A DNA stretch of 41,663 nt from positions 1 to 41,663 of the forward strand of contig JAJAZN010000267.1 in NCBI GenBank assembly GCA_026785685.1, given 5' to 3'. Under the pieces are notes generated by a model. The model was not told the origin of the DNA. It ran no database searches and saw nothing but the letters and a program-made list of their open reading frames with translations. The DNA is from Thermoleophilia bacterium (GTDB lineage: Bacteria > Actinomycetota > Thermoleophilia > Gaiellales > Gaiellaceae). Position 1 is the stretch's first letter. Each line of letters begins with the position of its first letter. Below are positions 5,330 through 19,257 of the stretch, one piece after another. The translations under genes and the position numbers were made by a program.

Positions 5330-5403
<74 letters not shown>

Positions 5404-5409
5404 CTCCGG

Positions 5410-15200: not shown

Positions 15201-15241
15201 GACGCGAGGGTACCCCGTCCGCCTGGTGTAGCGTGAGATTC

Positions 15242-16432
15242 GTGAGCAACCTGCTTTCAGTGGACGAGGCTCTTGCCCTCATTCTCGCGCGCGTAGAAAC
15301 GCTTCCTGCCGAGCGGGTCATGCTCGCAGCTGCAGCGACCCGGGTGAGCGCCGAAACCGTCGTCTCGGCGGTCGACGTCCCCCCCTTCCGGAGCTCGTCG
15401 ATGGACGGGTACGCCGTCCGGTCTGTGGATCTCCCCGGCACGTTGGCCATCGTCGATCACTCCGCGGCGGGTCGACCGTCGGATGCGACTCTTGGCGCGA
15501 ACCAGGCGATCGAGATCTCGACAGGGGCCGTTGTCCCGGAGGGTGCCGATACGGTCGTTCCGGTGGAGCGGGTCGAGGTGACAGGAGACACGGTGACGAT
15601 CCCGGAGCCCGTGCCGACACGTGACAACATTCGCGAGCCCGGCGGAGACGTTCGGATCGGGTCGGCCCTCGTCTCACCCGGTGACGTCCTCACGCCTGCC
15701 CGTCTCGGAGCTCTCGCGGCATGCGGGATCGAGAGCGTCATGGCGCATCGCGTACCACGCGTCACGATCGTCGCTACCGGGACGGAGCTTCGGCCCCCCG
15801 GTGAACCTCTGGCACGCGGCCAGATCTACGAATCGAACGGCCTCATGCTCGCGGCCGTACTCGAGGCTGCAGGCGGAGCAGTGACCCGACTCGCGGCCGC
15901 GGAGGATACGGAGGATGCACACGCGGCTTCGCTCGAGCAGGCCCTCGAAGCGGACGTCGTCGTCACGTCGGGCGGAGTATCCGTCGGGCCCCACGATCTC
16001 GTTCGGCTTGTTCAGGCACGCCTCGGCGTCGAGGAGGTCTTCTGGGGCGTGGCAATGCGGCCTGGAAAGCCGCTCGCCTTTGGTTGCCGGGGGCGGACGC
16101 TCGTCTTCGGCTTGCCGGGAAACCCGGTGTCCGCTCTCGTCGGAGCGCTCCTCTTCGTCCGTCCGGCGCTGCTTGCCCTCACCGGTCACACCGACCCGGC
16201 TCCACCGTTTCGGCCGGGTCTCCTGGCGGCTCCGATCTCGCAGCGACCGGAGCGGGACGACTTCGTCCGGGCGCGAGTGACGTGGGGTGAGGACGGTGCG
16301 CTTGTCGAGCCGATCGTCGGCCAGGAATCTCACATGATCGCGCACACGACGGCGGCTACCGGTCTCGCCTGGATTCCCCGTGGGTCGGGATCACTTCCCG
16401 CCGGGTCGCGCGTCCGCTTCCTGCCTCTCTGA
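15242..16432 (+). CDS. moeA: Molybdopterin molybdenumtransferase MoeA (ORF opens at 15233)
   Basis: FRSSSMDGYAVRS...STGAVVPEGADTVVPVE...TSGGVSVGPHDLV...GLPGNPVSALV; GTG 15242 preceded by TAGCGT-N7. Confidence 0.93.
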   Translation: MSNLLSVDEALALILARVETLPAERVMLAAAATRVSAETVVSAVDVPPFRSSSMDGYAVRSVDLPGTLAIVDHSAAGRPSDATLGANQAIEISTGAVVPEGADTVVPVERVEVTGDTVTIPEPVPTRDNIREPGGDVRIGSALVSPGDVLTPARLGALAACGIESVMAHRVPRVTIVATGTELRPPGEPLARGQIYESNGLMLAAVLEAAGGAVTRLAAAEDTEDAHAASLEQALEADVVVTSGGVSVGPHDLVRLVQARLGVEEVFWGVAMRPGKPLAFGCRGRTLVFGLPGNPVSALVGALLFVRPALLALTGHTDPAPPFRPGLLAAPISQRPERDDFVRARVTWGEDGALVEPIVGQESHMIAHTTAATGLAWIPRGSGSLPAGSRVRFLPL

Positions 16433-16655
16433 GCCTGAGTCCACCGTTTTGCGTGATCGCGAGGCGCTCGTCGGGGTCGTCAGGACGTGGGGGATGGGCC
16501 GCGCAGGCTGGTGGCCTGTGGGGCCTCATCCCCCCACGGAGCGCACCGTTCGGGTGGGCACCACCAGAGTCCGAAGAAACGGTGCCCACCCCGACGGGAA
16601 GCGGCCTGGCGAGCCCGACGAGATGCAACGCCCGCGCAAAACGGTGGATTCAGGC
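16433..16655. repeat. 223-bp element with terminal inverted repeats and internal hairpins
   Basis: GCCTGAGTCCACCGTTTTGCG (16433-16453) vs reverse complement of 16635-16655 GCCTGAATCCACCGTTTTGCG (20/21), with weaker similarity continuing inward (CTCGTCGGGnTCGnCAGGnCG); internal perfect stem GGGTGGGCACC/GGTGCCCACCC (16552-16562/16581-16591). Confidence 0.75.
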
Positions 16656-18500
16656 TGAGGCACCCTTGTCGCCAGGGCGCTCCGAGCGTCCTCGCGCAAC
16701 GGGCGTATACCGCCCGGATGCGAGGGCACCGAGCTGTGATGCCACCGCTGCCCAGGCGATGAGCGCGAGCACGGTCGGCCAGGAGACGAAGCCCAGCGTC
16801 ATCAAGGAGACGAGGTACAACGGCGTGTTCAGACCGAGCTCGAGCTGGGTTCCAACCGCAACGAGCGCAAGAGCCGGCCCGGCGAGCCCGATGCCGTACA
16901 GGCAGTCGCGCAGCCAGCCGGCTCCTGTGGCGACCTGCGGTAGCCACAGCCACGCATACAGCGAGGGGACAATGAAGAGCAGGGCATAGGGGCTGATCAC
17001 CGCGGTTGCGATCCCGATCCCTCCGAGCGCGAGGAGCGAGACTGCGTATCCGGCCAGCACCTCCTCCGCCGTTGCTGCGGCCGTTGGGATGAGAACGCGA
17101 CGGGCTCGCCACCAGCCGAACGCGGCGGCGGCGCCGACGAGCGCCAGGCCGACCACCGGCCAGTCCGTGACGGCGGGGCTATCCGGTGGTGGTGGAAGCG
17201 CCGACCCGCGCGGGAAGACACCGGCGAGCGCGCCCACGCCGATCACGAAACCGATCCAGAGCCAGACGCCGAGGCGGGTTCGGAGCGCCCGCCACCCATC
17301 CGAGAGCGGGAGCCGCCGCCGTCGACTGCGTGCAAGGAGGTCGACGACGCCCGCAAGAAAGGGGATCAGTGCGACGAGGAGCACGAACTCGATCGCCCAG
17401 CCGCGAACGATCCGAGACCCGAGGTAGACGTAACCGTTCGTTCCCCCCGCGAGGTCGATGCCGTTGTCCAGTGACGCGAGCACCGATTCGGCGGCGCGAC
17501 CGAGCCTGACGAACTGACGACGATCGAGTTGCGCCGTTGTGTCGGAGGTCGCTTCACCACCTCCGTCGTTCGCGGTCGTGAGACGGAGGGCAGAGATCTC
17601 GCGACCGAGGAATGGAGCCTGCTCGCCGTAGCCGAACGGAATCCCGAGGTTGACGAGCTGCGTGAGCCAGCCGGGGTAGACGGGTGCGGCACCGAGCTCG
17701 TCTTCGACGCGAACATCAGCGGTACGCACGAGCGCCGGCGCAGGTGACCGCGGCGCGAGTCCTGCAATCTCGAGCCGGGGCCTCGCTGACCCCGCGAGGG
17801 CGTCGAGTGACACGACCGCGCGAACCGTGTCGCGCCGCGGCGAGCGCGCCGCGAATCGCTCGGCGCCAAAGCCACCAAACGCGCCGCCATCGGAGGAGAG
17901 GAAGATCAACGTGTGCTCCGGTGTCGGGCGCCTTGCGATCGTGCCGAGCCGCCCGTATCCCCGCTCGATCTCGATCAGTGCTGCCGTTCCCGACGCATTG
18001 TCGTTCGCGCCAGGACCGCTGCCGATGTTGTCGCGGTGCGCGAGGAAGAGGATTGCATCGGTGCTCGCGCCGGGGATGACCGTGACGAGGTTTCGGAGTC
18101 GCACCGTCCCGAGCCCGGGAATCGTTTCATCCCATGCGTCTTCTGTCGTGGGAAGGCCGTACAGGGCGAGCCTTTCCTTCACCCAGCCCGCTGCGCCCAG
18201 GGCACCCTCCGTCCCCGGCTCGCGGTCAGGGAAGTCCCTCGCCAGCTCTGTCGCGAGCTGGGTGGCCGAGCCACCGTCGAACGCCGGCGGAAGGGTCGAG
18301 GCGGGGAATGGGCCTGGCGTCGCGATCGTGAACGCGAGCACGAGGAGGGGAACGACGAGGAGCAGGCTCGCTCCTCGAACGATGGCGCCGTTGATGGGCT
18401 GGTCGGAATTTCGCCGCCGGGTGCGCCGCCGAGACCGTGCAGCAGGCCGATCGGAGGGCGGTCTCCGGCCTTGCCTCCTCGCTGAATCAGGGGTCACCAC
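16650..18500 (-). CDS. M28 family metallopeptidase with C-terminal transmembrane region
   Basis: ILFLAHRDNIGSGPGANDNASGTAALIEIERGYG...HTLIFLSSDGGAFGGFGAERFA; probable GTG start near 18497-18500. Confidence 0.82.
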   Translation of the reverse strand: MVTPDSARRQGRRPPSDRPAARSRRRTRRRNSDQPINGAIVRGASLLLVVPLLVLAFTIATPGPFPASTLPPAFDGGSATQLATELARDFPDREPGTEGALGAAGWVKERLALYGLPTTEDAWDETIPGLGTVRLRNLVTVIPGASTDAILFLAHRDNIGSGPGANDNASGTAALIEIERGYGRLGTIARRPTPEHTLIFLSSDGGAFGGFGAERFAARSPRRDTVRAVVSLDALAGSARPRLEIAGLAPRSPAPALVRTADVRVEDELGAAPVYPGWLTQLVNLGIPFGYGEQAPFLGREISALRLTTANDGGGEATSDTTAQLDRRQFVRLGRAAESVLASLDNGIDLAGGTNGYVYLGSRIVRGWAIEFVLLVALIPFLAGVVDLLARSRRRRLPLSDGWRALRTRLGVWLWIGFVIGVGALAGVFPRGSALPPPPDSPAVTDWPVVGLALVGAAAAFGWWRARRVLIPTAAATAEEVLAGYAVSLLALGGIGIATAVISPYALLFIVPSLYAWLWLPQVATGAGWLRDCLYGIGLAGPALALVAVGTQLELGLNTPLYLVSLMTLGFVSWPTVLALIAWAAVASQLGALASGRYTPVARGRSERPGDKGASA

Positions 18501-18558
18501 GACGGGGGCTATAGTACGACCTCCCGGACCCGTAGCCCCGTGGCGTGTGACACCGACG

Positions 18559-19257
18559 ATGCCCGAGACCTCAACCATCCTGCTCGTCGACGACGAGGAA
18601 GCTATCCAGAAGCTCCTCACCTACCCGCTCGAGCGAGACGGGTATCGCGTCGTTCCGGCCTGGGACGGCGAGGAGGCACTTAGGCGCTTCGGCGAGGAAG
18701 AGATCGACCTCGTCGTGCTCGACATCATGCTCCCGAAACTCGACGGCCTCGAGGTCTGCAAGCGCCTCCGGGCCGAAAGTACCGTTCCGATCATCATGCT
18801 CACCGCTCGGGATGACGAGCTCGACAAGGTGCTCGGGCTCGAGCTCGGAGCGGACGACTACATCACGAAGCCGTTCCTGATCCGTGAGTTCCGGAGCCGG
18901 GTCAGGGCTGTCCTGCGCCGTGCTGCGACACCGCATCTCGGCGGAAAGCGCGAGGAGACGATCGATCGCGGCGACGTCAAGATCGATCTGCCGCGACGGA
19001 CGGTCGAGGTACGAGGCGAGCTCGTCCAGTTGACATTTGTCGAATTCGAGCTGCTCGCTCTGCTCGCGGCAAACCCCGGTGTCGTCTACTCGCGCCGACA
19101 GCTCCTCGAACGGCTCCGTGGAGGGGCCGACTATCGCGAGCCACGCACCATCGACGTCCACGTCCGGCACCTGCGCGAGAAGATCGAGGTCGAGTCCCGC
19201 GAACCGGAGCTGATTCTCACGGTCCGTGGCGCCGGATACCGCTTCCGCGACGGATGA
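18559..19257 (+). CDS. OmpR/PhoB-type response regulator
   Basis: ILLVDDEEAIQKLL...DLVVLDIMLPKLDGLEVCKRLR...ELGADDYITKPF; winged-helix DNA-binding domain YREPRTIDVHVRHLREKIE. Confidence 0.96.
   Translation: MPETSTILLVDDEEAIQKLLTYPLERDGYRVVPAWDGEEALRRFGEEEIDLVVLDIMLPKLDGLEVCKRLRAESTVPIIMLTARDDELDKVLGLELGADDYITKPFLIREFRSRVRAVLRRAATPHLGGKREETIDRGDVKIDLPRRTVEVRGELVQLTFVEFELLALLAANPGVVYSRRQLLERLRGGADYREPRTIDVHVRHLREKIEVESREPELILTVRGAGYRFRDG

Follow-up and report, generated by a model that had tools for sequence, protein, structure and literature searches.

A non-autonomous transposable element at the stop codon of a moeA-like gene in Thermoleophilia, probably mobilized by an IS1380-family transposase

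What kind of sequence fills the short space between two convergent genes is the question raised by a contig of a Thermoleophilia bacterium of the family Gaiellaceae. The window, that is, the whole stretch of 41,663 nucleotides analysed here, contains a gene for a moeA-like molybdopterin molybdotransferase on the plus strand (15233–16432; Pfam domains MoeA_N, MoCF_biosynth and MoeA_C) and a convergent gene for an M28-family peptidase on the minus strand (16650–18620; Pfam Peptidase_M28); its only RNA gene, according to Rfam and ARAGORN, is a tRNA-Ile (GAT) at 5330–5404. Between the two protein genes, the initial annotation had placed a 223-bp inverted-repeat element at 16433–16655, regarded as a MITE-like dispersed repeat, a REP-like repeat or an elaborate bidirectional terminator. 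The stretch is a non-coding, non-autonomous transposable element (MITE) at the moeA stop codon, and comparison of sequences makes it probable that this insertion was mobilized in trans by an IS1380-family transposase.

The inverted-repeat element is real, although its limits had to be corrected. A perfect 5-bp duplication, CTGAG/CTGAG, flanks it at 16429–16433 and 16655–16659, and equivalent duplications border other copies. When these flanks are included, the inverted arms comprise 25 nt (16429–16453/16635–16659) and are 92% complementary; however, since the outermost CTGAG is a direct repeat lying outside the terminal inverted repeats (TIRs), the element proper extends over 221 bp, from 16434 to 16654. 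Its orientation is arbitrary, the plus strand being taken as the one with the stronger fold. Sequence and family comparison place the left TIR, CCTGAGTCCACCGTTTTGCG (family consensus CCTGGATCCACCGTTTTGCG), at 16434–16453 on the plus strand and the right TIR, CGCAAAACGGTGGATTCAGG, at 16635–16654 on the minus strand. The moeA gene ends at the insertion site, with its TGA (16430–16432) inside the left duplication and not directly before the left TIR as first placed, while the right TIR does cover the peptidase stop (16650–16652), so that the last codon and the stop of this gene are within the element. The absence of a convincing open reading frame is also borne out: the frames that cross the element are unsupported as genes, and its interior diverges between lineages through base-pair compensation and not as a protein would. 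The element is thus short and without a transposase gene, and it combines TIRs, a duplication of constant length (5 bp), dispersed copies and empty sites.

The copies were searched for by BLAST in the same genome and in relatives, and both hold them, so that the finding which the initial annotation had named as refuting, a lack of both further copies and conservation between relatives, does not apply. In its own genome, the copy in the window is accompanied by two more full-length copies (contigs C253 and C186) and ten partial ones, 85–96% identical, most of the partials running into contig ends as repeats in assemblies do. Even when halves on separate contigs are paired, at least 10 copies remain, a number to be read as a lower bound because contigs break within copies and half-copies may pair up. 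On the same BLAST basis, the family occurs in a Lake Baikal Thermoleophilia MAG of the same genus (G001), in the same family but different genera (G018, G067, G068, G085 and G092) and, elsewhere in the same order, in its sister families (G031, G040 and G041); in total, 10 of the 399 sampled genomes of the class match, all within one order of Thermoleophilia. The Baikal MAG was the sole match in a collection of genome contigs, no match to the MITE was found in a plasmid collection, and the 3’ end joined to CTNAG had no exact match in IMG/VR. Within the scope of the open-access papers searched, this MITE family appears to be undescribed so far, while elements of its kind are already known.

The target duplications follow the consensus CTNAG, and in intact copies from several genera the middle base agrees across the two sides. 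Matching pairs are CTGAG in the window, L094 and L113, CTCAG in L059, L100, L106 and L029, CTAAG in L095, and TTAAG in L097. The flanks of a few copies are off by one outer base (CTGAG/CCGAG in L058, ATGAG/CTGAG in L101 and CTCAG/TTCAG in L116), as expected from decay. Other traces of the family are shorter. Hairpins of 46–67 bp that run from TIR to TIR are found at L061:1475–1520, L097:402–468 and L036:1501–1565 and are apparently derivatives by internal deletion, the one in L097 having the TGA of a gene within its flank. Moreover, solo right-end fragments (GACGAGATGCAACGCCCGCGC..ACGGTGGATCC) lie beside or inside open reading frames at L014:1501–1561, L015:1501–1532 and L031:1501–1539, and these are possibly decayed copies recruited as coding tails.

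The history of the locus can be read from its relatives. Eight of them present a syntenic convergent moeA/M28 pair with no element in between. When the element and one duplication are removed in silico, CTCTGAG joins GCACCC and the peptidase frame lengthens; the restored tail, ASERQEADARPGGK, is comparable to ASEREETDARARRE of the sister genome G001, and the restored frame ends with ...KGASERQEADARPGGK before its stop, which resembles ...VRASEREETDARARRE... in that genome. Given this resemblance, the peptidase tail once ran antisense into moeA. The element landed on the moeA stop codon, parting moeA from the convergent peptidase gene and replacing the last residues of the peptidase, which had earlier overlapped the 3’ end of moeA in antisense. 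The current peptidase stop is a TGA one codon into the element, and it arises from a G-to-A change in the right TIR relative to the family consensus.

A plausible autonomous partner is provided by IS1380 elements. A truncated IS1380 transposase gene in the same genome is preceded, about 120 bp before its start, by TTTAG followed directly by CCTGGATCCACCGTTTTG, and the MITE TIR is identical to this left end of the IS element at 18 of 18 positions, a comparison confined to one end because the other end of the IS is missing. The genome G018 carries both the MITE and a full-length homologue, 81% identical to the truncated transposase, with a score of 316.6 bits on the IS1380 model NF033539, whose cut-off is 180. 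Similar ends recur in related IS1380 copies: CTTAG followed by CCCGGATCCACCG adjoins an IS1380 gene in G006, and an IS1380 remnant in G117 has the ends CCTCGATCCACCG and CGGTGGATCGAGG between CTGAG and CTCAG, whose middle bases differ. The flanks of the IS1380 copies are one-sided (CTTAG, TTTAG and CTGAG), except in the G117 remnant, the only one in which both such ends are preserved. The match of the TIR to the end of this IS1380 element, and the similar ends of related IS1380 copies next to CTNAG-like flanks, point to an IS1380 transposase as the likely mobilizer. Such a DDE transposase would recognize the shared end CCTGGATCCACCGTTTTG, cut and paste the MITE in trans, and attack CTNAG sites with a 5-bp stagger.

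The MITE resembles the IS1380 element over only about 18 bp at the end, and its interior does not derive from that element by simple deletion. In the genome of the window, no intact IS1380 element was found whose two ends both match those of the MITE exactly, and in G001, where MITEs are present, no close transposase was found. The IS1380 transposases of the window’s genome (G000:C312:5383–5970, in L072 and L121, and G000:C120, in L067) are truncated or interrupted by an internal TGA. Since both are broken, this genome may have lost the means to mobilize the MITE, unless the assembly has missed an intact copy. A more distant IS1380 element, at L120:1353–2956, encodes a transposase 38% identical and has the ends CCCGGATCCTGCG; both of its flanks are TAGCTA, a different, palindromic target that also bears a stop codon.

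The two other origins initially considered fare poorly against these data. A bidirectional transcription terminator belonging to the moeA/M28 locus would account for the position between convergent genes and for hairpins that are very strong on either strand, but the same locus lacks the element in the eight relatives, many unrelated loci carry it together with target duplications, and the sequence shows no evident U-tract, which makes this explanation very unlikely. As the origin of the element, a locus terminator is refuted by the empty loci and the dispersed copies, and it is superfluous, although the element may still act in this way where it has landed: the strong branched fold would probably serve both genes as a passive transcript end or stabilizer. 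The palindromic, extragenic and multicopy nature of the element also recalls REP/REPIN-type repeats moved by a RAYT (Y1) transposase. However, REPs are palindromes of 20–40 bp, most of them with GTAG or CGTC tags (PMC3733652), and a 221-bp element with long TIRs and a fixed 5-bp duplication, as expected for a DDE transposase, differs from them to the point that this relationship is extremely improbable.

The fold itself raises the question of whether the MITE is more than a transposable element. Folded as RNA, the stretch 16429–16659 reaches −173.8 kcal/mol, with z = −15 on the plus strand and z = −11 on the minus strand relative to shuffled sequences. Well-preserved copies have in common a long terminal stem and internal arms, mostly two, with exceptions in L093, which has one, and L100, which is without most of its arms. 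On the plus strand of the window copy, the first arm, a hairpin at 16486–16538, covaries between lineages, and the second, a hairpin at 16540–16602, contains the perfect 11-bp stem 16552–16562/16581–16591; this stem and the one at 16486–16496/16527–16538, both already recognized in the initial annotation, are present as described. The sequences of the arms differ between lineages, yet their pairing is kept.

It is against this background that the plus strand of the MITE can tentatively be considered to double as a functional structured RNA, or as a single-strand DNA signal, with a fold selected beyond its ends, a reading that has a modest chance of being correct. In its favour, 28 of 78 pairs have changed on both sides, a value reached by no shuffle, and pairing drops to about 40% when the partners are slid by one column. 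Moreover, in representatives of seven diverged lineages, the plus-strand fold is 19–32 kcal/mol lower than that of the minus strand, and opposed non-Watson–Crick positions on the plus strand (counted in L001, L093, L095, L097, L098, L143 and L145) are G.U in 35 cases and A.C in 7–8, approximately 5:1, the A.C count shifting with marginal placements. G.U columns are conserved, as are the junction blocks GGAGCGCACCG and GGGRAGCGGCCTGGC, and a precedent exists in Coxiella burnetii, where some copies of QMITE1/QMITE2 yield sRNAs (PMC5896051). On the other hand, the G.U positions are partly inherited and not independent, since the lineages share ancestry; the bias is absent from the decayed copies L059 and L029; the arms of a palindrome can also stay complementary through hairpin-templated repair; and G.T likewise prevails over A.C in DNA. 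In addition, copies follow their preceding genes in either orientation, and an Rfam search returned only weak, spurious matches to eukaryotic miRNAs, far under the gathering scores. The strand bias, together with its absence from decayed copies, suggests that active master elements have been kept foldable as one particular strand. That the family is an IS1380-dependent MITE lineage bearing a branched structured RNA, selected strand-specifically across several Thermoleophilia families, is doubtful; if true, many insertions would place a folded RNA domain right after the stop codon of a gene.

The position on a stop codon is not peculiar to moeA. In about 18 of 24 scorable insertions, including two IS1380 copies, the stop of a neighbouring gene lies inside the duplication, either as TGA within CTGAG or as TAG within CTTAG, according to open reading frames scored by hand. 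One strand of CTNAG always includes a stop codon, and because the duplication preserves it, an insertion at such a stop leaves the upstream gene intact; insertions of this type would survive, while those that break genes would be removed by selection. In a baseline of 329 kb, made up of the window and 287 kb from the sister genome, stop codons account for 33 of the 68 CTNAG sites that are non-coding, and 186 more CTNAG sites lie inside genes. Since about half of the non-coding sites of this lineage are stops anyway, the preference for CTNAG and the purging of gene-breaking insertions account for most of the stop-codon pattern. The proportion observed could also be read as active steering of the elements towards stop codons or the ends of genes instead of selective survival there, but site choice and purifying selection already predict approximately half, and the leftover excess is marginal and based on hand-scored frames, so active targeting is very unlikely.

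Compared with known systems, the MITE has ends matching the IS1380 elements of its lineage and a duplication of the same length as that of ISEcp1, an IS1380 member that generates 5-bp duplications (PMC10100714). Unlike such IS elements, it has 221 bp, no transposase and an interior unrelated to the IS found, and its target is strongly CTNAG, whereas the duplications quoted for ISEcp1 are AT-rich (TGTTT, ATGTT). QMITE1 and QMITE2 of Coxiella burnetii are also small, non-autonomous, multicopy elements with TIRs and duplications, often found in the 3’ regions of genes (PMC5896051). However, they have other ends and duplications of 2–3 nt (QMITE1) or 7–11 nt (QMITE2) instead of a fixed 5-bp CTNAG, and the fold of the Thermoleophilia MITE covaries across genera. 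The Tn3-derived TIMEs (PMC4133298) are likewise miniature, non-autonomous and moved in trans with duplications of 5–6 bp, but they have 38-bp Tn3-type ends and AT-rich targets.

As a MITE, the element is of an ordinary kind; its points of interest are the unusually well-conserved branched fold and the target that bears a stop codon. It represents a MITE family of an uncultured actinobacterial lineage whose ends and flanks link it to the IS1380 family, of which ISEcp1 is the best-known member. The stop-bearing CTNAG target offers a simple and testable account of how such elements may build up harmlessly at the ends of genes, and the covarying, strand-biased fold makes this family a candidate for a MITE-borne RNA.
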